Source: Tomitella fengzijianii
GTDB lineage: Bacteria; Actinomycetota; Actinomycetes; Mycobacteriales; Mycobacteriaceae
Direction: 5' to 3'
NCBI RefSeq assembly: GCF_007559025.1
Contig: NZ_CP041765.1
Span: forward strand, 802,679 to 866,678
DNA length: 64,000 nucleotides
Shown: positions 16,995 through 31,168 of the stretch, one piece after another
How the letters are laid out: the number at the start of each line of letters is the position of its first letter
Numbering within the stretch: the first letter of the stretch is position 1
Notes under the pieces: generated by a model
Databases searched by the model: none
What the model was told of the DNA's origin: nothing
Seen by the model: only the letters and a program-made list of their open reading frames with translations
Made by a program: the position numbers and the translations under genes

Positions 16995-18191
16995 CTATCC
17001 GCCGAGCTGCAAGGCCAGGACCAACTCCTCGACCTGTGCCTGGACGCTCTCATCGGCGGTGAAGCGCACCGCCCGGCCGACATCGAGGATCATGGCGAAC
17101 GCCGCATGCGCCAGGTAGACGGCCTCGTTCCGGCGCAGCTCCGGGCGCAGCCGCAGCACCGAGTCCGCCCAGGACTCCGCCACGCGGCGGTGGGCGGCGC
17201 GGAGCATGCGCCGGCGGCTCTGCGGCAGGTTCGACACCTCGGCGAAGTAGAGCGTCAACTGGTCCGGATGTCGGAAGGACCGGCGGATGTAGAGCCTCGC
17301 CACCATGCGGAGGGCCGCTTCGGGGTCCCGTGCGGAGGCGGCGGCAGCCTGCTGTGCGGGTCCGAGCCCCTCCGCGGTCCGGCTGAATGCCGCGTCGAGC
17401 AGCGCGGGCTTGCCGTCGTAGTGCCGGTATACGCCCGACGCCGTCATTCCCGCGGCCGCGGCGATCTCCTCGACGCTCACCTCGTGGTAACCACGGCGCG
17501 CGAAGAGCCGGATCGATTCGGTCAGCAACGCCTCGCGCGGGTCGGCCGGTGCCGGCGGGCGGTCGGGGCCGCGCGGTGCGGCGGCGTCCGGGGCGCGCTC
17601 GGGCGCGGCCGGGCCGGGGGACGGACTGTCCACCACGGCGAGGCAGCCGTTCACGAGCACAGTGATGATGCGCTTCCGCGCCAGGGGGGTGCGGTGGCCG
17701 GTGACGCTGCCGAGGATGCTCAACGCGGCCGTGGTGCGCAGGCGCACCTGCGCGGCGGTCATCTCCGGGTGCAGTGCGCGTACGGGCTCTGCCAGGCGTG
17801 CACTGACGGTGCGCATGGTCCGGACCACCCGGAGCCTGTCCTCCTCGCTCAGCAGCCGCGCCTCCCACCGGTAGAGTCCGCCGCTGCGCCGGTGTTCGAT
17901 CGACGTGGCGGCGAGCGATTCCAGGAGCGCGGTGAGGCGGGCGCACGGATGCGCGGCCGGCTCGGGCGGAAGGTCGGTCGCCTCGTAGAGGGCCTGCGTC
18001 AACGACTCGACGGAGTGCAGGAACAGCGCGTACTTGCTTGGGAAATGCCGGTAGAGCGCGGGGCCGGACACTCCGACGGCGGCGGCGATCTCATCCATGC
18101 CCGCCCCGTGATAACCGTGCTCGTCGAAAGCCTCCGCCGCGACGACGGCGATCCGTTGCCTGCGATCGCGGGGACGTATCTGGGCCGACAT
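16995..18191 (-). CDS. Double TetR-domain transcriptional regulator
   Basis: The 398-residue product contains two complete TetR units in one chain. The first helix-turn-helix is near residues 12-50 (AAEAFDEHGYHGAGMDEIAA, VSGPALYRHFPSK). A Pro/Ala linker around residues 190-215 precedes the second, near 218-260 (SIRLFARRGYHEVSVEEIAA, MTASGVYRHYDGK). Each is followed by a helical effector-like segment. Ordinary TetR proteins are about 200 residues and dimerise; here one chain could supply both halves. It is divergent from an enoyl-CoA hydratase-like gene with a 74-base gap. No frame disruption separates the halves. Confidence 0.88.
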   Translation of the reverse strand: MSAQIRPRDRRQRIAVVAAEAFDEHGYHGAGMDEIAAAVGVSGPALYRHFPSKYALFLHSVESLTQALYEATDLPPEPAAHPCARLTALLESLAATSIEHRRSGGLYRWEARLLSEEDRLRVVRTMRTVSARLAEPVRALHPEMTAAQVRLRTTAALSILGSVTGHRTPLARKRIITVLVNGCLAVVDSPSPGPAAPERAPDAAAPRGPDRPPAPADPREALLTESIRLFARRGYHEVSVEEIAAAAGMTASGVYRHYDGKPALLDAAFSRTAEGLGPAQQAAAASARDPEAALRMVARLYIRRSFRHPDQLTLYFAEVSNLPQSRRRMLRAAHRRVAESWADSVLRLRPELRRNEAVYLAHAAFAMILDVGRAVRFTADESVQAQVEELVLALQLGG

Positions 18192-18265
18192 GGATAGAAA
18201 GTTAACCGCAGTTCCCTCGTCCCGTGGTTGTATCGAGGGGAAACCAAGACGGACGGGAGCGGAGG

Positions 18266-19072
18266 ATGACGGATGCCGGCGGGCCCGACGGCGTGCGAGT
18301 GGTGTCGACGGCCGGGGTGTTGACGGTGACCATCGACCGGCAGGCCCGGATGAACGCCCTCGACTCGGCGACGGTCGAAGAGCTGGTCCGCGCGTTGACC
18401 GAGGATGCCCGTGACGAGGCTGTGCGCGCGGTGGTCCTCACCGGGGCGGGAACGGCGTTCTGCACCGGCGCCGACCTCGTGGCGATGTCGTCCGACAGGC
18501 CGGCCGGCGCGGCGGAGGCCGATGAGCGCGCGCGGGCCACGATGCGGCGTGCCGAAGAACTGATCCGCGCCATCGTCGAAGCCCCGGTGCCTGTCGTGGC
18601 GGCGGTGAACGGCGCCGCCGCCGGGCTCGGGGTCTCGGTGGCGCTGGCCTGCGATCTGGTCTACGCCGCGGAGGATGCGTACTTCCTGCTGCCGTTCACC
18701 GGCATCGGACTCATGCCGGACGGCGGCGCGAGCCTGCTGGTCCCGGCTGCGGTGGGGCGCGCCCGCGCCAATGCGATGGTGCTGCTGGGCGACCGGCTGC
18801 CCGCCGCCGAGGCGCAGGCATCCGGACTGATCTGCGAGGCGGTGCCGGCGGAGCGCCTGTCCACGCGGGTCGACGAGGTCGCCGCGCGTCTGGCGTCCCG
18901 CTCGCGCCGGGCGCTGGAGGCCACGAAATCGGCGATGGCCGCCACGACCCTCGCGCTGCTGGATACGGCGCTGGCGACGGAGGCGGAGTCGCAGCGTGCC
19001 CTGCTCACCGGCCCCGACCTGCAGGAGGGGATCGCGTCGGTGCTCGAGCGCCGCGCGCCGCAGTTCCGCTGA
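18266..19072 (+). CDS. Enoyl-CoA hydratase/isomerase family protein
   Basis: A 268-residue crotonase-fold protein. CTGADLVAM forms the first oxyanion-hole segment and NGAAAGLGVSVALACDLVYA the second. IGLMPDGGASLLV carries the Asp typical of PaaG-like isomerases. The two glutamates of classical enoyl-CoA hydratase are not in their usual places, so a double-bond isomerase or other crotonase activity is as likely as hydration. The start at 18266 follows GGAGCGGAGG. It is probably regulated by the divergent double-TetR protein. Confidence 0.85.
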   Translation: MTDAGGPDGVRVVSTAGVLTVTIDRQARMNALDSATVEELVRALTEDARDEAVRAVVLTGAGTAFCTGADLVAMSSDRPAGAAEADERARATMRRAEELIRAIVEAPVPVVAAVNGAAAGLGVSVALACDLVYAAEDAYFLLPFTGIGLMPDGGASLLVPAAVGRARANAMVLLGDRLPAAEAQASGLICEAVPAERLSTRVDEVAARLASRSRRALEATKSAMAATTLALLDTALATEAESQRALLTGPDLQEGIASVLERRAPQFR

Positions 19073-19132: not shown

Positions 19133-20989
19133 TCAGCTGCCGGGGGTGGCGCCCAGCGCGTCGAGGAACGCGCGGGTCACGTCGGTTGCGGGCCCGGTGG
19201 AATCGGCTCCCTGGACGAACACGGAGAACGCCATGTCGCCGAGGATCCCGATGAACCACCCGTGTGCGCGCCGGTCCGTCACGTCGGCGGTGCCCGCCAC
19301 GCCGGAAAGGCCGTCGATGTCGCGGAGCGCGGACGCGTTGCCTGCCGCGACGGCCTCGTTCATCATCAGGCGCACCGATTTGGCGGTGCCCTCGGACACT
19401 GTGGCCGGCGGGTCGTCCGCGGAGCCCTTCCGGCCGACGACGAGTATCGGGGAGAAGCGGTCGCCGTCGTCGGCCAAGGTCGCGGCCACGACGGCCATTC
19501 CGAACGGGCTCGCCGCCACCTGGCCCTGGCCGATGCCGGCTTCGATCCGCGCGGCACCCGGCTCGGTGGGCGGCACCGAACCGGTGAGTGTCGTCAGCCC
19601 CGGGGTGTCGAAATCGGCTCCGACGCCCAGCGCTTCGGCAGTTCCCGGGAGCGCGCCGTCCGGCAGCGCGCCGGTGATCGTCGCCAGCGTGGTGAGGCAC
19701 GGCGCGGCGAAAGCCTGGGTCAGGGTGACGGGGCCCAGGTCCAGGTCGTCGGGGTTGAACACCGTGCGACCGTCCACGGTGACCTGCGCGGGACAACCGA
19801 CGATGTCGTCGGGCGCGATGCCCGACCCGCCGAGTGCCGCGGAGACCGTCACCAAGGAGAACACCGAGCCGGGGGCGTAGAGGCCGTTGAGTGCCACGGG
19901 ACCGCGGGCCGATGCGGCCGCATTCTGCGCGACGGCGCTCACCCCGCCATTGGACGGGGTGAGCGCGACGATCGCCGCCGGACGTTCTGCGGAGTCCACG
20001 GCACCCTGCGCCGCCTTCTGGACCTGCAGATCCATCGTCGTGGGTACGTTCTGGACATCCTCGGGCAACTTGGCCTGCACCCGGACGTCTTGCTCGTACC
20101 CGGGGTTGTCGATGTCCACCGACCACCCCGCGGACCGGGACAGGATGCTGCGCCAGACATTCGGGATCCCGTCCAGTGCGGGGGAGTGCACCGCCGGGTC
20201 GACGGTCAGCAGCCGGCCGCGCTGGGGCAGCGCGACGGAGGCGATGGCGTCGAGGTCTGCGCGGAGCGGGTCGACGTCCTCCGGCCGCAGCGTGACCACC
20301 ACGTAGCGGCTCGGCTCCGGTGCCGCGGCGTCCGCGGCGGGGGCGTCGCGGGCCGACGTGGATTGCTCCTGCTCCGCCTCGGCCATCCCCTCGGTGATCG
20401 ACTCGGCGGTGATCGACGGGTCGACACCGTGCAGGACGTCGGCCAGCGCGGCGATGTCGTCGGCAGTCGCGTCGAGCGCGATGGCGACGTCGGTGACCGT
20501 CTGCCACCGCATGAGGTCGTTGCGGTTCCTGTCGATCACGGGGCTCGCCAGGTCGAGGTCCTGCGAGTAGACGAGCCGTCCGCCGGGCTGCAGCCGGGAG
20601 TCGATGATGTGCGGCGACCACGGGACCTTGCCGTCCTCGAGGCGGTCGATGGTGCCGGTGGTCTCGGTCTTGTAGCCGTCGGGCAGCTTCCAGGAGGTGT
20701 GCGTGGTGAGCGTGCCGCGCAGCGATTCGAGCGTAGACAGGTGCGCGGTGGCGTTCCCCATCCCCCGGAAGGTCGCGGTGAGGGCCTTTTCGGCGGCCTC
20801 CGGGTCGTCGGTCATCGACGCTGCCCGGTCCAGTTCGTGGTCGTTGACTGCCTTGACGAACTCGCGCATCGGATCCGTCGGCGCGCCCAAGGTGATGCCG
20901 CACGCGGTCGTGCACAGGAGGATGACGGCACCGCCGAACGCCGCCGCGGTGCGTGCGATGCGGCGTCCCCCGTCGCGCGGAATCGGCAT
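19133..20989 (-). CDS. Penicillin-binding-protein-like lipoprotein with degenerate transpeptidase motifs
   Basis: A 618-residue protein with a lipoprotein signal (lipobox LCTTAC, Cys30). An NTF2-like MecA_N domain spans about residues 35-145, a dimerisation region follows, and a transpeptidase fold spans about 300-618. Architecture and lipidation match mycobacterial Rv2864c-type class B PBPs. However, SxxK reads S375-V-F-S (Lys lost), the usual SxN segment reads PCL within FAAPCLTTLA, and KTG reads VAG within GVAGTADV. The protein is therefore unlikely to acylate with peptidoglycan or beta-lactams. A regulatory or scaffolding role outside the membrane is plausible. The frame is otherwise intact. 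It is convergent with the crotonase gene and divergent from fadD5. Confidence 0.87.
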   Translation of the reverse strand: MPIPRDGGRRIARTAAAFGGAVILLCTTACGITLGAPTDPMREFVKAVNDHELDRAASMTDDPEAAEKALTATFRGMGNATAHLSTLESLRGTLTTHTSWKLPDGYKTETTGTIDRLEDGKVPWSPHIIDSRLQPGGRLVYSQDLDLASPVIDRNRNDLMRWQTVTDVAIALDATADDIAALADVLHGVDPSITAESITEGMAEAEQEQSTSARDAPAADAAAPEPSRYVVVTLRPEDVDPLRADLDAIASVALPQRGRLLTVDPAVHSPALDGIPNVWRSILSRSAGWSVDIDNPGYEQDVRVQAKLPEDVQNVPTTMDLQVQKAAQGAVDSAERPAAIVALTPSNGGVSAVAQNAAASARGPVALNGLYAPGSVFSLVTVSAALGGSGIAPDDIVGCPAQVTVDGRTVFNPDDLDLGPVTLTQAFAAPCLTTLATITGALPDGALPGTAEALGVGADFDTPGLTTLTGSVPPTEPGAARIEAGIGQGQVAASPFGMAVVAATLADDGDRFSPILVVGRKGSADDPPATVSEGTAKSVRLMMNEAVAAGNASALRDIDGLSGVAGTADVTDRRAHGWFIGILGDMAFSVFVQGADSTGPATDVTRAFLDALGATPGS

Positions 20990-21102
20990 GGACCAAGTTG
21001 AACAGACGGCGCCGGTGATGTCATCAGGTGACCCGCCGCCGCGCCCCTCGGTACGGCGCCGTGCGGCAGGCCCGGCGCAGAATCGCCGTTAACAAAACGC
21101 GC

Positions 21103-21128
21103 TTGCGAACCTGCCGTATATGTAATAC
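21103..21128 (+). promoter_or_regulatory. Candidate promoter of the fadD5-mce operon
   Basis: An A+T-rich patch ahead of fadD5 contains TTGCGA at 21103-21108 and, after a short spacer, TGTAATAC ending at 21128. The spacing is not ideal and no -10 of the TAnnnT form sits at 17 bases, so this is tentative. Confidence 0.3.
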
Positions 21129-21199
21129 TCGCCACATCTCGCCGGGCTGCGGCCCGGCGGCGGACGGGGAATCCGACGGCGACGACAGGGGCACCGACC

Positions 21200-22819
21200 A
21201 TGGCAGCAGACGTCTCGGGTGCGGGGGCCGCTGCGGCGCCCCAGCGCTTCACCCGCAACACCTGGAACAACTGGGTGGCGGGCCACGCGGTGATGAGGCC
21301 GAATGCGGAGGCCTTCCGTCACCGGGGGACATCGACCACCTGGGCGCTGCTGCACGCACGCGCGGAGGCGATGGCGTCAGCACTGTCCCGCCGGGGGATC
21401 GTGCAGGGCGACAGGGTCCTGCTGCTGACCCTCAACCGCACCGAGTTCTTCGAGGCGGTGCTGGCCGTGAACGCGCTGGGGGCCATCGCGGTGCCGGTGA
21501 ACTTCCGCCTCACCCCGCCGGAGTGCGCGTACATAGCGGAGAACTGCGGCGCGCGCGCCGTCGTCACCGAGCCGACCCTCGAGCCACTGGTGACCGCGCT
21601 GCGCGGCCTGGTCCCGTCGCTGGCCCTGGCGGTCACGATGGCACCGGACGGCGCGGACGGGTCGGCCGGTGCCGGTGCCGCGGACGGATTCGAGGGCTTC
21701 GAGGAGCTGATCGAGGAGCAGGGCGAGCCGTACGCGCCGCGCGACGTCCCCGAGGACTCGCCGAGCCTTATCCTCTACACCTCCGGCACCACCGGGCGGC
21801 CCAAGGGCGCGGTGCTCACCTATGCCAACATGGCCGCCCAATCGTTCACCTGCATCAGGGCACTGCAGATGGGGCTCGACAGCGTGGGCCTGCTGGCGGC
21901 GCCCACGTTCCACGTGGCCGCGCTGGGCTCGATCGCGCCGGCGCTGCAATTGGGAACCACCACCGTCATCCACCCGCTGGGCGCGTTCAGCCCCGCCGAC
22001 GTCCTGGACACCTGGGAACGTGAGCGGATCACGTCCACGTTCATGGTGCCGGTGCAATGGCAGGCCGTGTGCGCGGATCCGACGGTCAAGGACCGCGACC
22101 TGGCGCTGCGCACGATCTCGTGGGGCGCGGCGCCCGCGTCGGACACCGTGCTGAAGGCGATGGCCGAGACCTTCCCCGACGCGCTCAACGTCGCGGTGTT
22201 CGGCCAGACGGAGATGTCGCCCATCACCTGCGTGCTCGACGGGGCAGACGCCCTGCGCAAACTCGGCTCCGTCGGCCGGGTGATACCGACCATCCAGGCG
22301 CGCATCGTCGATGACGAGATGAACGACGTCCCACCGGGCGAGGTCGGGGAGATCGTGTACCGCGGGCCGACCCTGATGCAGGGGTACTGGAACGACCGCG
22401 CCGCCACCGACGCTGCGTTCGACGGCGGCTGGTTCCACTCGGGGGACTTGGTTCGCGCGGACGAAGAGGGCTTCATCTTCGTGGTCGACCGCAAGAAGGA
22501 CATGATCATCTCCGGCGGCGAGAACATCTACTGCGCCGAGGTCGAGAACGTGCTCTACGGGCATCCGTGCATCCGGGAGGCCGCGGTGATCGGGCGGCCG
22601 GACCCCAAGTGGGGAGAAGTCCCGGTGGCCGTCGTCGCGCTGGAGGGCGACGGGCCCGACCTCGACGCGCAGTCGCTCGCCGAGTGGCTGGGCGACAGGC
22701 TTGCGCGCTACAAGCACCCGCACGAGGTGGTCGTGGTCGACGCGCTCCCGCGCAACGCCAGCGGCAAGGTCGTCAAGGGCGAGCTGCGGAAGAACGCACC
22801 GGCGGCGAAGACCGGGTAG
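21200..22819 (+). CDS. fadD5: Long-chain acyl-CoA synthetase, FadD5-like
   Basis: A 539-residue adenylate-forming enzyme. LILYTSGTTGRPKG is the phosphate-binding loop, WGAAPASDTVLKAM and FGQTEMSP the adenine-binding core, and FHSGDLVRADEEGFIFVVDR the hinge. NASGKVVKGELR holds the catalytic Lys. It would activate fatty acids to acyl-CoA through acyl-AMP. It heads the mce cluster exactly as fadD5 heads mce1 in M. tuberculosis, suggesting it activates fatty acids delivered by the Mce complex. yrbEA follows 10 bases after its stop. Confidence 0.9.
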   Translation: MAADVSGAGAAAAPQRFTRNTWNNWVAGHAVMRPNAEAFRHRGTSTTWALLHARAEAMASALSRRGIVQGDRVLLLTLNRTEFFEAVLAVNALGAIAVPVNFRLTPPECAYIAENCGARAVVTEPTLEPLVTALRGLVPSLALAVTMAPDGADGSAGAGAADGFEGFEELIEEQGEPYAPRDVPEDSPSLILYTSGTTGRPKGAVLTYANMAAQSFTCIRALQMGLDSVGLLAAPTFHVAALGSIAPALQLGTTTVIHPLGAFSPADVLDTWERERITSTFMVPVQWQAVCADPTVKDRDLALRTISWGAAPASDTVLKAMAETFPDALNVAVFGQTEMSPITCVLDGADALRKLGSVGRVIPTIQARIVDDEMNDVPPGEVGEIVYRGPTLMQGYWNDRAATDAAFDGGWFHSGDLVRADEEGFIFVVDRKKDMIISGGENIYCAEVENVLYGHPCIREAAVIGRPDPKWGEVPVAVVALEGDGPDLDAQSLAEWLGDRLARYKHPHEVVVVDALPRNASGKVVKGELRKNAPAAKTG

Positions 22820-22829
22820 GAGGGCACAG

Positions 22830-23642
22830 GTGACCTATGGCCTGCCCGCGGCGCGGGGGCCGTTCCACGATCTCGCGCTCCAGGTCGGCGGCCTCGTCGC
22901 GTTCTCGGCGCGCGCGCTGGTCGCCGCCCCGCGCGCGGCGGTGCGCGGGCGGCTGCCGCTGCGTGAGGCGGTCGAGCAGACGGCGTTCCTCGCGCGGGTC
23001 TGCAGCGGCCCGGCGCTGCTGCTGATGCTGCCGATCGGCGTGCTCATCGCCGTGTCGGTGGGGTCCCTCGCAGCGCGGCTCGGTGCGGGCGGCTACTCGG
23101 GCGCAGTCACGGCGTTCGTCGTGGTGGGGCAGGCCGCGGCGCTGGTGTGTGCGCTGATGCTCGCCGGCGTCGGCGGCTCCGCCATCTGCGCGGACCTCGG
23201 TTCGCGGACCATCCGCGAAGAGATCGAGGCCCTCGAGACCATGGGCATCGACGTCATCGAGCGCCTCGTCCTGCCGCGGATCATCGCGGCCGTGGTCGTC
23301 TCGGTGATGCTGTGCGCGCTGGTGACCCTGGCGGGGGTGCTCACCTGCCTGCTCTATCAGGTCTACGTGCAGCATCAGTCGTCCGGCGCGTTCCTGGCGA
23401 CGTTCGCGCAGTACGGGCGCCTGTCCGACTTCACCACCGCCATGATCAAGGCCGCGGCTTTCGGGCTGACCTCGGCGCTGATCGCCTCGTTCAAGGGGCT
23501 GCACGCCAAGGGCGGGCCGAGCGGAGTGGCGGACGCGGTCAACGAGACCGTCGTCCTCGCCTTCGTCGTCGTGTTCGTCGTCAACACGGTGCTGTCGCAG
23601 CTGTACTCGGTGATCGTGCCGGCACCGGGGGCGTACGCATGA
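22830..23642 (+). CDS. yrbEA: Mce-associated permease YrbEA (MlaE family)
   Basis: A 270-residue MlaE-type ABC permease with about five to six helices. EEIEALETMGIDVIERLVLP is the cytoplasmic coupling helix that contacts the ATPase; LPIGVLIAVSVGSLAA and VVVSVMLCALVTLAGVL are membrane spans. The GTG start follows TAGGAGGG. With YrbEB it forms the membrane channel of the Mce lipid importer; the ATPase MceG is not in this window. Its stop overlaps the yrbEB start (ATGA). Confidence 0.92.
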   Translation: MTYGLPAARGPFHDLALQVGGLVAFSARALVAAPRAAVRGRLPLREAVEQTAFLARVCSGPALLLMLPIGVLIAVSVGSLAARLGAGGYSGAVTAFVVVGQAAALVCALMLAGVGGSAICADLGSRTIREEIEALETMGIDVIERLVLPRIIAAVVVSVMLCALVTLAGVLTCLLYQVYVQHQSSGAFLATFAQYGRLSDFTTAMIKAAAFGLTSALIASFKGLHAKGGPSGVADAVNETVVLAFVVVFVVNTVLSQLYSVIVPAPGAYA

Positions 23643-24499
23643 TCGGTCTCGGCACCGTCGGCCGCGTGCGCCGCGCAGGTCTACCGCTGCGGCGCACCTA
23701 CGACGGCGTCGCCCGCTTCGGCGAACACGTGACGTTCTTCGTGCACGTGCTCGCCGGCATCCCCTTCGCCGTGCGCAAGTACTGGCGCCACATCCTGCGC
23801 GAGATCGGCGACGTCAGCTTCGGCAGCGCGTCGCTGCTCGCGGGCGGCGGCACCATCGGGATCGTGTTCGCCATGTCGGGTGTCGCGGCGATCATGGTCG
23901 GCGTCGAGACCCATCGGGGCCTGGAGCTGATCGGGATGACCTCCCTCAGCGGCCTGCTCTCGGCCATCGCCAACACGCGCGAGCTGGCACCGGTGGTCGC
24001 GAGCATCGCCCTCGCCGCCAAGGTCGGCACCGGGTTCACGGCCAAGCTCGGCGCCATGCGCATCTCCGACGAGATCGACGCCCTCGACGCCATGGCGGTC
24101 CGGTCCGTGCCGTTCCTCGCCAGCACGCGGGTCGTCGCGGCGATCGTGTGCGTGGTGCCGATCTACATGGTGGGACTGCTCGCCGCCTACATCGCGACGA
24201 GATTCACCGTCGTGACCATGGGGGGCGACTCCGCCGGCACCTACGACTACTACTTCCACCTCGGGCTCGGCGCGTCGGACCTGTGGTTGTCGCTGACCAA
24301 GGCGCTGGTGTTCGCGACGATCGTCGCGCTCGTGCACTGCTCCTACGGTTTCCACGCCTCCGGTGGCCCGGAGGGTGTGGGCCGCGCCGCCGGCCGCGCG
24401 CTGCGGACGAGCATCCTCGCCATCGGCATCGCCGACGTGGCCATGACGTTCGCGCTCTGGGGCATCGAGCCGTCGGTGCCGGGGCTGGGACTGTCATGA
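23639..24499 (+). CDS. yrbEB: Mce-associated permease YrbEB (MlaE family)
   Basis: A 286-residue partner of YrbEA. DEIDALDAMAVRSVPFLAST is the EQ-loop-like coupling helix of MlaE permeases, and GTGFTAKLGAMRISDE precedes it as in other YrbE proteins. The N-terminal segment FAVRKYWRHILREIGDVSFG is the interfacial helix. Overlaps of four bases on both sides (ATGA) bind it into a translationally coupled unit with yrbEA and mceA. Confidence 0.93.
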   Translation: MIGLGTVGRVRRAGLPLRRTYDGVARFGEHVTFFVHVLAGIPFAVRKYWRHILREIGDVSFGSASLLAGGGTIGIVFAMSGVAAIMVGVETHRGLELIGMTSLSGLLSAIANTRELAPVVASIALAAKVGTGFTAKLGAMRISDEIDALDAMAVRSVPFLASTRVVAAIVCVVPIYMVGLLAAYIATRFTVVTMGGDSAGTYDYYFHLGLGASDLWLSLTKALVFATIVALVHCSYGFHASGGPEGVGRAAGRALRTSILAIGIADVAMTFALWGIEPSVPGLGLS

Positions 24500-25608
24500 A
24501 CGGGTTCGGGGCGCCCCGCGGGCATGTGCACGCCGCACGTGGTCAGGGCCGCCCCGCGCCGCGCCGGCTCACGGCGTCGAAGGGGGCCCTCGCGCTGCGC
24601 GGAGCAGCCGCCGTCATCGCGATCGTCGTCGGCGCGGCCGCGTTCGTCGCCTACGGGAACGGGGTGTTCGCCGGGCACCCGGAGATCACCGCGGACCTGC
24701 CGGCGGAGGCGGGGCTGCTCACCGGGTCCGTGGGCGTGCAGTACCAGGGCGTGCCGGTCGGCGAGGTCACGGCGATCGACGCGGGCACGGACGTGTCGAC
24801 GGTCCACTTGCGCATCGACCCGGACGCACTCGGACGCATTCCGGCCGCGGTGAAGGTGCGCGTCGCGCCGAACACGCTGTTCGGCGACGTCGTCCTCCAA
24901 CTGGTTCCGGACCCCGCGCGGTCCGCGCCCGGCGGGCGCCTGCAGGCGGGAGACGCGCTGCCTGCCGACACCTCGCCGGCGGCGGTCCGCCTCTACGACG
25001 TCTACGAGCACGCCGTGGCGACGATGGACCGCCTGCAGCCGCAACACCTCCAGACAGCGCTCACCGCGATGGCCGACGCGCTGCGCGGGCGGGGCGACGA
25101 CCTGGGCCGGTCGCTGGACCGGCTCTCGCGATCCGCCGGCACGCTCGTGCCCGACACCCGGAGCCTCCTGGCCCGCGCGCCGCAGTTCGCGGCCGTCACC
25201 GAGTCCGCCGACGCGGCCGCCGCCGACGGGCTGGGCGTGCTCCGCGACATCACCTCGCTGTCGAAAGCGGTCACGGACAGGCCCGACAGCCTCGCCGCGT
25301 TCTTCCGATCCGCGGGGGCCGCCGCGTCGTCCGCCGCCGCCGTGGCCGGCGAGAACACCGGGGCCCTCCGCCGGATCGTAGACCAGGCGGCCCCTGCCCT
25401 CACGGCGGTCGACGCGGGGCGTAGGGGGCTTCCGGACACCTTCGAGGCGCTCCGGCGGTTCACAGACAAGGGGGTCGCGGCCTTCGACACCGGGGTTTTC
25501 GACATCACCGCCGTGCCGAGCTTCAGCGACCCGATGCCGTACCCGGCGGCGGATTGCCCGCGCTACGGCGGTCTCGCGGGGGCGAACTGCGGCGGGGGAG
25601 GCGACTGA
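24496..25608 (+). CDS. mceA: Mce family protein, MceA position
   Basis: A 370-residue protein with one N-terminal membrane span (about residues 36-53), an MlaD domain (about 62-140: GLLTGSVGVQYQGVPVGEVT) and a long helical Mce domain to about residue 340. In the assembled transporter six Mce proteins form a hexameric tube that carries lipid across the periplasm. It ends with a Cys-containing tail (CPRYGGLAGANCGGGG) and is shorter than M. tuberculosis Mce1A (about 450 residues). Its stop overlaps the mceB start. Confidence 0.9.
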   Translation: MNGFGAPRGHVHAARGQGRPAPRRLTASKGALALRGAAAVIAIVVGAAAFVAYGNGVFAGHPEITADLPAEAGLLTGSVGVQYQGVPVGEVTAIDAGTDVSTVHLRIDPDALGRIPAAVKVRVAPNTLFGDVVLQLVPDPARSAPGGRLQAGDALPADTSPAAVRLYDVYEHAVATMDRLQPQHLQTALTAMADALRGRGDDLGRSLDRLSRSAGTLVPDTRSLLARAPQFAAVTESADAAAADGLGVLRDITSLSKAVTDRPDSLAAFFRSAGAAASSAAAVAGENTGALRRIVDQAAPALTAVDAGRRGLPDTFEALRRFTDKGVAAFDTGVFDITAVPSFSDPMPYPAADCPRYGGLAGANCGGGGD

Positions 25609-26681
25609 TGGCGTCACCGGCAACCGCCCTCCGCCGCCTCCGGCCGGGCGCGTCCCGCAGGGACGGGCTGCGCGGGCCGCTGACCGTCGTCGCGGTGTTC
25701 GTCGTGCTCGGAATCGCGGCCGCCGTCGTCGTGTCCAACACCCTCACCGTGCCCGTGCCCGGCGGCACCCGCGCCTACTCCGCGGCGTTCACCTCGGTGC
25801 CCGGCCTGTCCCCGGGGGATGCGGTGACCGCGGCGGGTGTGCGGGTGGGCCGCGTCGACTCGGTGACCCGCGCCGACACCGCCGACGGGGGCGCCCACGC
25901 CGTCGTCGCGTTCTCCGTGCGTGACGACGTCCCGCTCGACGCGCAGGTGCATGCGGCGATCCGCTACGGCGACATGCTCGGCGTGCGCTACCTCGCGCTG
26001 ACGGCGCCGCTCACGGAATCGGGTGCGCGTTTGCCCGCGGGGGCCCGCATCCCTCCGGCGAGGACGAGCCCGCCGCTGGATCTGACGGCCGTCTTCGACG
26101 GCTTCAAGCCGCTGTTCGACGCACTCGACCCGGCGCAGGTGAACTCGCTGGCACGCTCCATGGTCGACGCGTTCGGCGGCGGAGACGGAGACGTGCGGGT
26201 GCTGGTGGGCAGGGTCGCGGACGTGACGGAGAGCCTGGTCGGCCACCGCGAGGCGATCGCGCGGGTCGTGGACAACCTCGGGGTCCTGGCGCAGGCGGCC
26301 GACCGGCGGGGACCCGAACTCACGGGGCTCATCGACGGCTTGGCGCAGATCTCCGGCACGATGGCGCAACGCAACGATGAGCTCATCGGCATCCTCGACG
26401 ACGGCGGTCGGGCCGCAGGCGCGGCGGCGGCGGTGCTGGAAGGGCGCGTCGACACGCTCGCGGGAACCCTTCGTCGGCTCGGGGAGACGGCGGACTCGTG
26501 GGTGGACAACACAGACGAGTTCAACCGGACCATGGCGCTGCTGGTCCCCTTCACCCGGTCCGCCGGCCGGATCACCGACTACGGTGCCTGGCTGCAGTTG
26601 TACCCGTGCACGCTCACCGCGAAGGTCGGGGACCTCGAGGCCAACCTGCTGGGCCCGGCCCACAGCGAGGCGTGCCGATGA
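25608..26681 (+). CDS. mceB: Mce family protein, MceB position
   Basis: A 357-residue Mce protein. A hydrophobic span at about residues 24-44 is followed by the MlaD core (FTSVPGLSPGDAVTAAGVRV, YGDMLGVRYLALT) and helical repeats. The C-terminus carries the YPCTLTAKVGDL segment with Cys residues common in MceB proteins. It joins MceA by TGATG and MceC by ATGA overlaps. Confidence 0.9.
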   Translation: MASPATALRRLRPGASRRDGLRGPLTVVAVFVVLGIAAAVVVSNTLTVPVPGGTRAYSAAFTSVPGLSPGDAVTAAGVRVGRVDSVTRADTADGGAHAVVAFSVRDDVPLDAQVHAAIRYGDMLGVRYLALTAPLTESGARLPAGARIPPARTSPPLDLTAVFDGFKPLFDALDPAQVNSLARSMVDAFGGGDGDVRVLVGRVADVTESLVGHREAIARVVDNLGVLAQAADRRGPELTGLIDGLAQISGTMAQRNDELIGILDDGGRAAGAAAAVLEGRVDTLAGTLRRLGETADSWVDNTDEFNRTMALLVPFTRSAGRITDYGAWLQLYPCTLTAKVGDLEANLLGPAHSEACR

Positions 26682-27769
26682 GCCGGACCGGAATCGCACG
26701 GCGATGGATGCGACGCGCCCGGCGCGCCGGTGACGTCACGATCACCGGGCGCGGATCGGAGCGCGGGCGCTCACGCGCACTCGTCCTCGTCGGCGGCGCG
26801 GGGATCGTCGCGGCCGCCCTCGTGCTGCTGGCGGCGGTGGCGCTGCCGCACGGCCGATACCTGCTGCGCACCGACCCCTATACGGCCGAGCTCGCCAACG
26901 CCGCGGGACTCGAAGCCGGCGATCCGGTGCTGGTCGCGGGCGTGCCCACCGGCAAGGTGGAATCGATCGACTTCGCGGGGGACCGCGTGGAGGTGCGGTT
27001 CCGGCTGGACGACGGCCGCCCGCTGGGCGCGCGGACCACGGCATCGGTGCAGCTCGCGACGATACTCGGCAAGAGGTACCTGGCGGTCGACCCGGCCGGC
27101 AGCGGTGAGGTGGGGCCGGACAGGACGATCCCGCTGGCGCGCACCACCGTCCCTTACAGCCTGGACGAGGCCTCGCGGTCCGCCGCGGACACCGCCCAGG
27201 AGATCGACGTCCGCGCGGTGGAGGAGATGGTCGACGCGCTGCGGGACTCGCTGCCGCAGGATCCGGACACCGTGCGCCGGGCCGTCACCGGGGTGTCCGC
27301 GGCGGCGGAGGCCATGAACGAGAACTCCGCGCAGATCGGTGTGCTGCTCGATGCGGGGAAGTCCCTCACCGGGCTGCTGGCCCGGCAGGACCGGTCGCTC
27401 GACACCGTCTCCGCCGAGGCGCGGACGATGCTCGGAGCGCTCGCCGCGCGGCGGCAGGCGATCAGCGGCCTCGCCGAGGACCTGCGCACCATCCTCGGCG
27501 CGGCCGACGCGGTCCTCGCCTCGGCGGATGGTGCCGGGCCCGGCGGGGCCGGGGGGCTCGACCGGCTCGTGGGCGACCTGCGCTCGGTGCTGGCCACCCT
27601 GGACGGCAACGCGGCGCGCATCGGCGAGGTCGTCGACAGGCTGCCGCCGGTGGTCCGCGCGGTGGTCGATGCCGGCGGCAACGGAAACTGGATCGACGTG
27701 TCGGCGCCCGCAGGGCCCGTGCCCGACACGTTGCTGTGCGTGTTCGGCGTGATGGAGGGCTGCCGGTGA
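26678..27769 (+). CDS. mceC: Mce family protein, MceC position
   Basis: A 363-residue Mce protein with a basic N-terminus, a membrane span at about residues 34-55, and an MlaD domain (AAGLEAGDPVLVAGVPTGKV, LATILGKRYLAV). Long coiled helices follow, ending in CVFGVMEGC. It is a subunit of the periplasmic lipid tube. It begins at an ATGA overlap and ends overlapping the GTG of mceD. Confidence 0.9.
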   Translation: MSRTGIARRWMRRARRAGDVTITGRGSERGRSRALVLVGGAGIVAAALVLLAAVALPHGRYLLRTDPYTAELANAAGLEAGDPVLVAGVPTGKVESIDFAGDRVEVRFRLDDGRPLGARTTASVQLATILGKRYLAVDPAGSGEVGPDRTIPLARTTVPYSLDEASRSAADTAQEIDVRAVEEMVDALRDSLPQDPDTVRRAVTGVSAAAEAMNENSAQIGVLLDAGKSLTGLLARQDRSLDTVSAEARTMLGALAARRQAISGLAEDLRTILGAADAVLASADGAGPGGAGGLDRLVGDLRSVLATLDGNAARIGEVVDRLPPVVRAVVDAGGNGNWIDVSAPAGPVPDTLLCVFGVMEGCR

Positions 27770-28875
27770 CCGCCGGGGCACGGCCTGCGCGCCGTCCGTG
27801 GCGTGTCGCCGCGGCGGTGCTGGGCGTGCTGGCGCTGTTCGCGGCGGCGTTGTGGTTCGTGTTCCTCCGCGGGGACGACGCGCGCCGGGTCGTCGCCGAT
27901 TTCACCCACGTCGAGGGCATCCACCCGGGAAGCAAGGTGGATGTGCTCGGCGTGCCGCTGGGCCGGGTCGAGTCGGTGCGGCCGCGTGGCGGCGCGGTGC
28001 GCGTGACGATGACGCTGCGCGAGGACGTCGAGCTGCCGGCCGACGTGAACGCCTATGTGATGAACCCGTCGGTGATCAGTGCGCGCTTCATAGAACTGGG
28101 CCCGGTCTACCGCGGCGGCGCCCGCTACTCCGACGGCGACGTCATCCCGGTGGCGCGGACCCACGCGCCGATCAACTGGGACGAACTGCTCGGCAGCTTC
28201 GACACGATCGCGGACGCCCTCGGCCCGGACGGCGGCGACGTCGGGTCCCTGATCGACCAGGCGGCGCAGGTCACCGACGGGCTGGGCGCGTCGGTGCACA
28301 GGGCGATCGAGCAGGTGGGTTCGGCGACGTCGCTCATCGGGGCGCGCGCCGATCAGATCGGCGCGCTCGTCGACGACCTCGACCGCATCGCCGACGCGCT
28401 CGGCGCCAGGCAGGGCCGGATCGCCGACACCGTCCGCTCGCTCGCGGCGCTGGGCGACGAGATGCAGCGGCAGGATCTCGACGTGGGCACACCCGTGACG
28501 CAGTTGAACAGCCTGTTCGACAGGGTCGGCGCGCTGCTCGAGTCCCGGTCCGACGACGTGGCAGGGGCCATCGCCGACGCCCGCGCGGTCACCGGGCTCC
28601 TCGCGTCCAAGCCGGCGAACCTCGCGGAGTTCCTCGACCTGACCCCGCTGGCCCTGCAGAACATCGACCGCGCGATCGGCCCCGACGAGCGTGCCCGGCT
28701 GCGCCTCGACGTCTCCTCGAGCGGCGACCAGTTCGCGGTGACGCGGCGGCTCTGCGACGAGCACCCGGGCCCGCTGTGCTTCGCGCCGGGGCTCACCAAT
28801 CCCGTGCCCATCCCGCTGAGCCGGTCGGACCCGTTCGGCCCGCTGGTGGAGCGATTCGGTGAGGAGGGTCGATGA
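27766..28875 (+). CDS. mceD: Mce family protein, MceD position
   Basis: A 369-residue Mce protein. The span at about residues 13-34 leads into VEGIHPGSKVDVLGVPLGRV and PSVISARFIELGPVY of the MlaD domain, then a helical region and a tail with SSSGDQFAVTRRLCDEHPG. The start is the GTG overlapping the mceC stop. Its stop overlaps mceE. Confidence 0.9.
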   Translation: MTAGARPARRPWRVAAAVLGVLALFAAALWFVFLRGDDARRVVADFTHVEGIHPGSKVDVLGVPLGRVESVRPRGGAVRVTMTLREDVELPADVNAYVMNPSVISARFIELGPVYRGGARYSDGDVIPVARTHAPINWDELLGSFDTIADALGPDGGDVGSLIDQAAQVTDGLGASVHRAIEQVGSATSLIGARADQIGALVDDLDRIADALGARQGRIADTVRSLAALGDEMQRQDLDVGTPVTQLNSLFDRVGALLESRSDDVAGAIADARAVTGLLASKPANLAEFLDLTPLALQNIDRAIGPDERARLRLDVSSSGDQFAVTRRLCDEHPGPLCFAPGLTNPVPIPLSRSDPFGPLVERFGEEGR

Positions 28876-29945
28876 CACGTCGCCCGCACAACCGGCGCCG
28901 CGGCGTACTCGCCGCGGTCGCCGCCACCGTCGCCGCGGGGATGTCGACCGCGGCGTGCGGTCCTGGGCTGCAGGACCTGCCCGTCGGTCACGAGGCGGAG
29001 GGCGACTCCTACGGCGTGACGGCCGTCTTCGACCATGCCGATCGGGTGATGCCGGGTGCGCCGGTGCGCATCGGCCAGCTGACGGTGGGCCGGGTCCACG
29101 ACCTGTCCACCGACGGCCGCGCCGCCGACGTGCGGCTGAGCCTGCGCAGCGACGTCGACATCCCGGCGGACGCCTCCGCCGTCATCGAGGTGCCGTCCGC
29201 GTTGGGCAGCCCGTTCGTGCGGATCGAGCCGGACGGAGGCGCCGGGGACGGCCCGGAACGAGGCGGTGAGCGCATGCTCGCGGACGGCGACACGATCCCG
29301 CTCGCGCGGACGCGGGTGGGGCCCGAGCTGGAGACCAGCCTCGCCACTCTCGGACTTCTGCTCAACGGCAGCGGGCTCGACCAGCTGCAGACGGTGATGG
29401 CCGAGCTCGACGCCGCATACGGCGGACGCGGCGGGCAGGTCCGCGGCCTGATCGACGACGCGAACACGCTGCTCGGCGACGTCGATGCACAGCGTGAGGG
29501 CCTCGACCGGACGCTTGCGGCGATGGACTCGCTGACCGGCACGCTGGCCGGGCACCAAGACGATATCGACCGAGCGCTCGTGCAGGCTGCACCGATGGCG
29601 ACGCTGCTCGCCGCGCAGGGTGACCGGATAGCGGATCTCGTCGACTCCGGCGCGGACCTCGCTGCGCACGCCGACGCGCTGTTGTCGACGTCCTCGGTGC
29701 GGATCGGCGCGGAGATCGACCAGGTGTCCCGGATCCTGGAGGCGCTGAGCGGGTTCAACGCCACCGATACGGACACGCTGCGCAGTGCCGACGAGTTCAT
29801 CGCGAGCTTCACGTCGGTGATCCGGGGCGACTACCTGCTGTTCGACGGCGCACTGGACATCCCCCGGTCGCTGTTCGAACTGTGGGCGGGGGAGCGGCTG
29901 CCCGCGGCATCGCAGCCGCCGCCGGCGGCGGGAGGCCCGCGATGA
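28872..29945 (+). CDS. mceE: Mce family lipoprotein, MceE position
   Basis: A 357-residue Mce protein made as a lipoprotein. A twin-basic signal with lipobox STAAC places the lipidated Cys at residue 29, as in MceE/LprK proteins. The MlaD core (HADRVMPGAPVRIGQLTVGR, VPSALGSPFVRIEP) and long helices follow. Lipid anchoring on the E subunit is conserved across mycobacterial mce operons and supports the subunit lettering. Confidence 0.9.
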   Translation: MTRRPHNRRRGVLAAVAATVAAGMSTAACGPGLQDLPVGHEAEGDSYGVTAVFDHADRVMPGAPVRIGQLTVGRVHDLSTDGRAADVRLSLRSDVDIPADASAVIEVPSALGSPFVRIEPDGGAGDGPERGGERMLADGDTIPLARTRVGPELETSLATLGLLLNGSGLDQLQTVMAELDAAYGGRGGQVRGLIDDANTLLGDVDAQREGLDRTLAAMDSLTGTLAGHQDDIDRALVQAAPMATLLAAQGDRIADLVDSGADLAAHADALLSTSSVRIGAEIDQVSRILEALSGFNATDTDTLRSADEFIASFTSVIRGDYLLFDGALDIPRSLFELWAGERLPAASQPPPAAGGPR

Positions 29946-31168
29946 GCCGCCGGGTCGTCGTCCAGCTGGTCCTGTTCGTGGTGATCGGGCTGACCGCCAC
30001 GGTGTTCGGCGTGCGGTACGTCGCGGGCCCGCAGAGCTTCGGCGGCGCGATCAGCGTGACGATCACAGCGGACGGCGCCTTCGGGGTGGGGCCCGGCGCG
30101 TCCGTCACTTACCGGGGCGTGCCGGTCGGCCGAGTGACATCGGTGACGATCGGCGACGGGGCTCCGGCCGGCGGCGGGGCCGTGGCCGGGACAGCGGTGG
30201 CGATCGCGGCGGATCTGGACCCCGACGTCCGGATCCCGGTGTCCGCCACGGCGCGCGTGGTGGGGGCGAGCGCGCTCGGGATCCGATCGGTGGACCTCGC
30301 CGCCGATACGGCGGAGGGGCCCTTCCTGCGCGACGGTGACGCGGTGACCGCGCCGGCGGAGCAACAGCCGCAGCAACTCGGCGCGCTGCTGGCCGACGCC
30401 TCCGGCCTGCTGGGCACTCTCGACCCCGATTCGTTGCACAGCCTGGGGGCGACGATGAGCACGGCATTCGAGGGCACCGGGCCGGTGCTGCGCAGGATGA
30501 TCGACGACACCGATCGGATCACGGCCGCGCTCGACGCGCATGCCGCGACGGTCGCCGGCCTCGTGGAGGGCGGGTTGCCGGTCGTCGACGCGCTGGCGGA
30601 CGCGGGCGGCGGGTTCCCCGACGCGGTGGCGGCCGCCCGCCGCATCACCCGTCAGCTCGTCGAGCACCAGGGCACGTTGACGCACCTGCTGTCGGACGCG
30701 CCGGCCCCGATGCAGAAGGTGGGCTACCTGCTGACGGGCTCGCGGTCGGACATCACGGGCCTGGTGGCCGCGGGCGACACGATCAGTGCGATCCTCGGCG
30801 ACCGGGATGCCGCGCTGAGCGCGGGACTGACGGCGTTCCCCCGGACCCTCGATCAGTTGACGTCCGTCCTGCACGACGGGCGTGCCGAATTCGTCCTCGT
30901 CGCCACACAGGGGCCGGTGTGCTACTACGACACGCCCCGGCGGGCGGTCGGCGACACGTCTGCCAGGGACGCGAATCCGGACCTGTACTGCCCGCCCGGC
31001 GAGGACCTGGAGCAGCGTGGATCACGCAACGCTCCGCGGCCCGACGACCTGGGGCTGCGGAACGCGACGCGTCCGGGAACCCCCGTGGGGCCGCCGATGG
31101 CCGAGGATCCGTGGCTGATCCCCACGGGCCGGGACCTGCTGCGGCAGCTCACCGCCGGAGGCGGGTGA
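29942..31168 (+). CDS. mceF: Mce family protein, MceF position
   Basis: A 408-residue Mce protein and the last gene of the operon. It has a span at about residues 5-27 and an MlaD domain (GVGPGASVTYRGVPVGRVTS, VVGASALGIRSVDLA). The helical Mce region ends with a conserved CYYDTPRR stretch and a polar tail. The stop codon lies inside the first unit of a 17-bp tandem array, so the extreme C-terminus (AGGG) is encoded by repeat sequence. No mam/mas accessory genes follow. Confidence 0.9.
   Translation: MSRRVVVQLVLFVVIGLTATVFGVRYVAGPQSFGGAISVTITADGAFGVGPGASVTYRGVPVGRVTSVTIGDGAPAGGGAVAGTAVAIAADLDPDVRIPVSATARVVGASALGIRSVDLAADTAEGPFLRDGDAVTAPAEQQPQQLGALLADASGLLGTLDPDSLHSLGATMSTAFEGTGPVLRRMIDDTDRITAALDAHAATVAGLVEGGLPVVDALADAGGGFPDAVAAARRITRQLVEHQGTLTHLLSDAPAPMQKVGYLLTGSRSDITGLVAAGDTISAILGDRDAALSAGLTAFPRTLDQLTSVLHDGRAEFVLVATQGPVCYYDTPRRAVGDTSARDANPDLYCPPGEDLEQRGSRNAPRPDDLGLRNATRPGTPVGPPMAEDPWLIPTGRDLLRQLTAGGG

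Follow-up and report, generated by a model that had tools for sequence, protein, structure and literature searches.

Several described systems indicate that the fold of penicillin-binding proteins (PBPs) can be useful for more than the cross-linking of peptidoglycan. The class B enzyme PBP 2B of Bacillus subtilis is naturally catalytic, and its engineered inactive mutant is described as still supporting division, indicating a structural role that is independent of catalysis (PMC5656894). BlaR1/MecR1 and PbpP are presented as PBP-fold sensors; the former are defined by a transpeptidase-like sensor domain that bonds the beta-lactam covalently, together with a cytoplasmic protease domain (PMC8092216). 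Beta-lactam sensing by PbpP depends on S301 and is lost when S301A is present at normal level, and the same inactive protein, when overproduced, still switches on the sigma factor, so that a dead PBP can apparently signal through protein contact (PMC8092216). Among the MecA_N-type lipoproteins, the S364A form of Mycobacterium abscessus PBP-lipo, predicted to be inactive, is reported not to rescue a knockdown (PMC9170245). A distal duplicate of PBP-lipo, MSMEG_6319, is described in environmental mycobacteria (PMC3987819), and meropenem-selected M. smegmatis is reported to carry mutations upstream of it (PMC9485614). In the titles and abstract openings of the open-access papers listed by our literature searches, no natural PBP family lacking a working active site was seen, the nearest work being on engineered inactive forms.

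Here we describe a gene, which we call PSE, in a stretch of 64,000 nucleotides of Tomitella fengzijianii DNA (the window). It is a paralogue, without catalysis, of the class B PBP lipoproteins of the MecA_N type, and is nested among catalytic PBPs that we term ACT. It has lost its polar catalytic residues with the exception of Ser375, the loss is common to three Tomitella genomes, and the sequence is constrained.

Domains and catalytic motifs of PSE

A sequence-only reading of the window had proposed that this open frame is intact and encodes a PBP lipoprotein with a MecA_N domain and a transpeptidase fold, in which all three catalytic motifs are lost. The frame was recovered at the same coordinates and on the same strand (Table 1). 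The class B PBP fold is recognized by the Pfam profile PF00905 (E 1.6e-19, 70.7 bits against a cut-off of 22.1), in agreement with the proposed transpeptidase domain. The MecA_N domain was borne out in part: PF05223 leaves a trace of 13 bits, short of the cut-off of 22 by which PBP-lipo proteins are recognized in Pfam, but the region is homologous by alignment, being collinear with that of catalytic relatives which do pass (L003, 55.9 bits; L058, 38.8 bits). The lipobox, judged by eye, is plausible but weak; LLCTTAC in PSE corresponds to LLCASAC and LLCSSAC in the orthologues, with Cys30 conserved and Thr, Ala or Ser at position −3. Besides the transpeptidase domain and the MecA_N trace, Pfam reveals no second signalling domain.

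Table 1. Positions of PSE, its parts, its paralogues and its neighbours (window coordinates unless a genome or locus code is given).
Feature	Position	Strand	Remarks
PSE, predicted lipoprotein resembling class B PBPs of the MecA_N type, non-catalytic	19133..20989	-	618 aa; ATG at 20989, stop at 19133
Putative signal peptide with a weak lipobox, as far as Cys30 (LLCTTAC)	20900..20989	-	judged by eye
NTF2-like (MecA_N) region, residues about 31-150	20540..20899	-	boundaries are our own; below Pfam cut-off, collinear with relatives that pass
Transpeptidase domain, residues 339-596	19202..19975	-	Pfam
SxxK site, S375-V376-F377-S378	19856..19867	-	alignment; Lys replaced by Ser, nucleophile Ser retained
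SxN site, P430-C431-L432	19694..19702	-	alignment
KTG site, V564-A565-G566	19292..19300	-	alignment
Own-genome ACT paralogue	G000:C1:3798237-3799982		
Own-genome DEG	G000:C1:3501748-3503352 (L071:7743-9389)	-	
DEG relative, example	L058:11872-13602		
Double-TetR-domain regulator	16995..18191	-	immediate neighbour of PSE in G003 and G004; in the window an enoyl-CoA hydratase separates the two
fadD-type acyl-CoA synthetase	21200..22819	+	oriented away from PSE; lies immediately ahead of yrbE/mce
Divergent PSE/fadD intergenic region	20990..21199	.	contains GTTAACAAAAC (21088-21098) and TGTAATACTCG (21121-21131)

The columns of the three motifs agree across a MAFFT alignment of related open frames, an alignment with named records, and phmmer alignments with solved PBPs, such as 4ra7, in which SVFS, PCL and VAG of PSE stand opposite SSFK, SSN and KTG. 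A regular-expression scan of the 618-residue chain found no SxxK, SxN, YxN or K[ST]G anywhere, ruling out that the true motifs lie elsewhere, which was one of the two findings that the sequence-only reading had named as its refutation. PSE consequently lacks each motif of a functional transpeptidase: SxxK is SVFS in 3/3 PSE sequences, SxN is PCL in two of the three and TCL in the third, and KTG is VAG in 3/3. Because these losses agree in three genomes (the window and two orthologues), sequencing error was rejected as their cause; S..K, S.N and KTG are intact in all 64 aligned catalytic relatives. The loss of all three motifs that had been proposed thus stands for SxN, for both lysines and for the Thr of KTG, but not for the nucleophile, as Ser375 is kept and SxxK is only half lost.

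The retention of Ser375, along with Phe377 and Gly566, in all three PSE sequences is what might be expected if Ser375 still acted with substitute residues. We consider such residual or altered catalysis highly improbable, as both motif lysines, SxN and the KTG Thr are gone, and Ser378, Leu432 and Val564 are no obvious replacements. The Lys of SxxK, the SxN motif and the Lys of KTG are needed for acylation. Their absence makes beta-lactam sensing, one of the functions previously suggested for PSE, unlikely in a covalent form, and PSE likewise differs from BlaR1/MecR1 in having no motifs and, by Pfam, no domain other than the transpeptidase and the MecA_N trace. A broader form of this idea is that PSE senses beta-lactams, or that it binds or senses muropeptides or stem peptides without forming a covalent bond. 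The kept fold and Ser375, and the existence of PBP-fold sensors such as PbpP and BlaR1, are consistent with this notion, but the known examples argue against it, since BlaR1 senses through a covalent bond and PbpP at normal level through its serine (PMC8092216), and PSE has neither the two lysines and SxN nor, by Pfam, a second domain through which to signal. Overall this explanation appears unlikely, although muropeptide sensing or scaffolding, also part of the earlier suggestion, would be possible functions for a protein of this sequence.

Distribution, descent and a second non-catalytic family

PSE is present in 3/5 Tomitella genomes (G000, which holds the window; G003; and G004, T. cavernea JCM 18542), its orthologues being 83% identical to the window protein. 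These two other genomes share the motif losses. PSE was not found in the other two of the five genomes scanned (G001 and G002), one of which is only 81% complete. The catalytic paralogue ACT was found together with PSE in the three carriers, and neither was found in G001 or G002; five related genomes, one of them 81% complete, are too few and too closely related for a test of this co-occurrence. Bearing on whether ACT was gained or lost, an FTR1-like neighbour of ACT has no match in G001 or G002, and another neighbour, an MFS transporter, has matches of 68% in G001 and 47% in G002. Across 401 genomes scanned within the bacterial family, identities to PSE, ranked from the best, drop from 83% directly to 49%.

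The genome that carries the window encodes three relatives. ACT is 47% identical to PSE over nearly the whole length and has the same domain order. LIP (L003), which by its domain make-up would be of the Rv2864c type, is 33% identical and shares the MecA_N and transpeptidase domains of PBP-lipo (Rv2864c/MAB_3167c). The third, DEG (549 aa), is degenerate. ACT is perhaps the counterpart of the distal PBP-lipo duplicate of environmental mycobacteria, MSMEG_6319. For comparison, a set of 91 rows was assembled (48 ACT, 16 LIP, 3 PSE and 24 DEG), grouped by best BLAST score and not by motif, after leaving out seven other class B PBPs and two open frames shorter than 400 aa (L061, partial DEG of L015). 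S..K, S.N and KTG are intact in 48/48 ACT and 16/16 LIP rows, unlike the 3/3 PSE rows, in which they are lost.

When 35 rows were analysed in a careful tree search from which the motif columns had been removed, the PSE rows fell inside a 26-row group that otherwise consists of ACT-type PBPs (support 100/100). The PSE stem is long, at 1.02 changes per column, and the tips are short (0.04-0.10). A quick tree of all 91 rows recovers the same 26-row group of PSE and ACT and places DEG in a separate group (quick-tree support 100 for each); ACT itself is not a single group in this tree, 12 ACT rows falling with DEG (a weak support of 72) and two with LIP (94). Approximately unbiased (AU) tests, in which the groups were chosen with the tree already in view and which involve long branches, rejected a grouping of the three PSE with the three Tomitella ACT proteins (p 0.019), so that PSE is not taken as the sister of Tomitella ACT, and did not reject a grouping of PSE with L074 (p 0.121).

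DEG is a wider family with a MecA_N region and no transpeptidase motifs, in which the SxN segment is missing. None of the 24 DEG rows shows S..K, S.N or KTG, the S..K column being readable in 23 of them and the KTG column in 19 (five open frames are cut). In a 201-genome scan spanning 31 genus codes, full-length matches or fetched rows represent at least 22 of the codes, a non-systematic count made up of 18 codes with full-length proteins among the matches listed and four from fetched loci. DEG is the gene just downstream of ACT, in the same orientation, in 11 fetched loci; the two lie apart in the three Tomitella carriers. Like PSE, DEG thus combines a MecA_N region with absent motifs, but PSE is not a member of this family: it groups with ACT rows in both trees, DEG stands apart, and PSE retains the SxN segment that DEG lacks. 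The separate placement of the two indicates that catalysis was lost at least twice among MecA_N PBPs, independently in PSE and in the much wider DEG family.

Constraint on a protein without intact catalytic motifs

The sequence-only reading took the intact frame as a sign of selection for a non-catalytic role rather than decay. The argument from the frame is weak on its own: in neutral simulations (substitutions only, with the spectrum taken from third positions; 2000 runs for each comparison) the frame escaped interruption in 28%, 34% and 47% of runs, and we therefore reject the open frame as proof of selection. The case for selection is made instead by constraint on the amino acids. The three PSE orthologues differ pairwise at 104, 104 and 63 amino acids, about half of the neutral expectation of about 200, 213 and 138, and their lengths differ by only two residues. 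The NG86 method puts dN/dS between these genomes at 0.20-0.28 for PSE, 0.14-0.29 for ACT, 0.10-0.14 for the Rv2864c-type LIP and 0.14-0.20 for DEG; the aligned frames run from stop to stop and so take in some codons ahead of the start. YN00 gives 0.07-0.10 for PSE, and as agreement between the methods is poor in this GC-rich DNA, these values are read only as orders of magnitude.

Most of the changes shared at strongly conserved positions hit catalytic residues. In the 64 ACT and LIP rows, 70 columns are conserved at 95% or more, and PSE is unchanged at 62 of them in all three sequences and changed in all three at eight (T376V, K378S, F416L, S430P/T, N432L, T551N, K564V and T565A). These changes affect 5/7 motif residues and 3/63 others (one-sided Fisher p = 9e-5, post hoc), a result which, given that we knew the motifs in advance and that the three PSE sequences sit on one stem, describes the placement of the changes and is not an independent test. 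Mean Kyte-Doolittle hydropathy at the eight columns moves from −1.43 to +1.49.

An alternative would be that PSE is a redundant duplicate in decay, catalysis having been the first thing to go, which now has no function and is becoming a pseudogene. Its presence in only three of five Tomitella genomes fits this possibility, as do the chance that the frame alone would have stayed open under neutrality and the faster change of PSE relative to ACT, the transpeptidase domains being 86-91% identical for PSE and 92-95% for ACT among the same three genomes. The halved rate of amino-acid change, the low dN/dS by either method, the near-identical lengths and the 62 untouched conserved columns are hard to reconcile with decay, which we regard as very unlikely. 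That selection has favoured a non-catalytic role, as first proposed, agrees with this evidence, and that PSE is both non-catalytic and under constraint is well supported by the sequence comparisons.

A proposed binding partner in peptidoglycan synthesis, and the neighbouring mce locus

The explanation that we favour, while giving it about an even chance, is that PSE would be a membrane-anchored, non-catalytic binding partner or regulator in peptidoglycan synthesis. PSE would be held by a lipid on Cys30 at the outer face of the cytoplasmic membrane, and the retained transpeptidase fold would be used for binding and not for chemistry. As a partner, regulator or scaffold, it may associate or compete with a catalytic PBP, or with the other partners of that PBP, and so tune the place or the amount of the active enzyme's work; the ACT paralogue of the same genome would be the first candidate. 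This proposal draws on the structural role of inactive PBP 2B, which PSE would resemble as a class B PBP acting independently of catalysis, and on the tandem arrangement of ACT and DEG in related genera. Signalling by overproduced inactive PbpP also fits it, as does the joint occurrence of PSE and ACT, within the limits of five related genomes. The need for the catalytic serine in M. abscessus PBP-lipo, as reported in PMC9170245, speaks against a simple transfer of the PBP 2B idea, and the faster change of PSE than of ACT in the transpeptidase domain would fit a weaker constraint too. If PSE and the wider DEG family are indeed non-catalytic partners, the output of class B PBPs in these bacteria would have a regulatory layer that is invisible to penicillin labelling.

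The neighbours of PSE also count against the partner proposal, as they concern lipid metabolism and import and not the cell wall: the double-TetR regulator, an mce locus and genes of lipid metabolism surround PSE. Nothing seen in the analysis ties it specifically to the divisome or elongasome, a link suggested earlier. In G003 and T. cavernea, PSE is preceded by genes for an aldehyde dehydrogenase, an oxygenase-like protein, a heme-binding-like protein and the double-TetR regulator, in that order, and is followed by fadD, the yrbE genes and mce. The window shows this arrangement too, except that an enoyl-CoA hydratase separates TetR from PSE. In G002, TetR adjoins fadD and PSE is absent; in G001, a relative of the hydratase (53%) precedes fadD, with no TetR match and no PSE.

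This setting raises the possibility that PSE is a lipoprotein assisting the Mce lipid importer encoded next to it, either binding lipid in an apolar cleft or tethering the importer to the wall. In all three carriers PSE lies beside the double-TetR regulator and the fadD-yrbE-mce genes and is divergent from fadD, with conserved intergenic stretches between the two, and the shift in hydropathy noted above would suit an apolar cleft. Most of that shift, however, comes from two Lys and one Asn having been replaced, and both G001 and G002 keep syntenic fadD and yrbE genes without PSE. Furthermore, GTTAACAAAAC and TGTAATACTCG precede fadD not only in the three carriers but in G002 as well, which assigns them to fadD and not specifically to PSE. 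An Mce accessory role therefore seems distinctly unlikely to us. Its boldest form, in which the class B PBP fold was repurposed, with an apolar cleft, as a lipid-anchored accessory or lipid-binding protein of the importer and would be, with the much wider DEG family, one of two independent cases of MecA_N PBPs turned non-catalytic partners, is very doubtful; if true, pseudo-PBPs would be a recurrent regulatory layer of envelope building. We retain the proposal of a binding partner or regulator in peptidoglycan synthesis as the best explanation of PSE.

Some minor features of the locus may be added. The enoyl-CoA hydratase of the window (18224-19072) has no equivalent at that place in the two other carriers or in G002. 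GTTAACAAAAC and TGTAATACTCG (window 21088-21131) are perhaps a promoter or regulator site of fadD/mce. The mce locus that follows fadD (window 22701-31165) contains two MlaE permease and six MlaD-type open frames.
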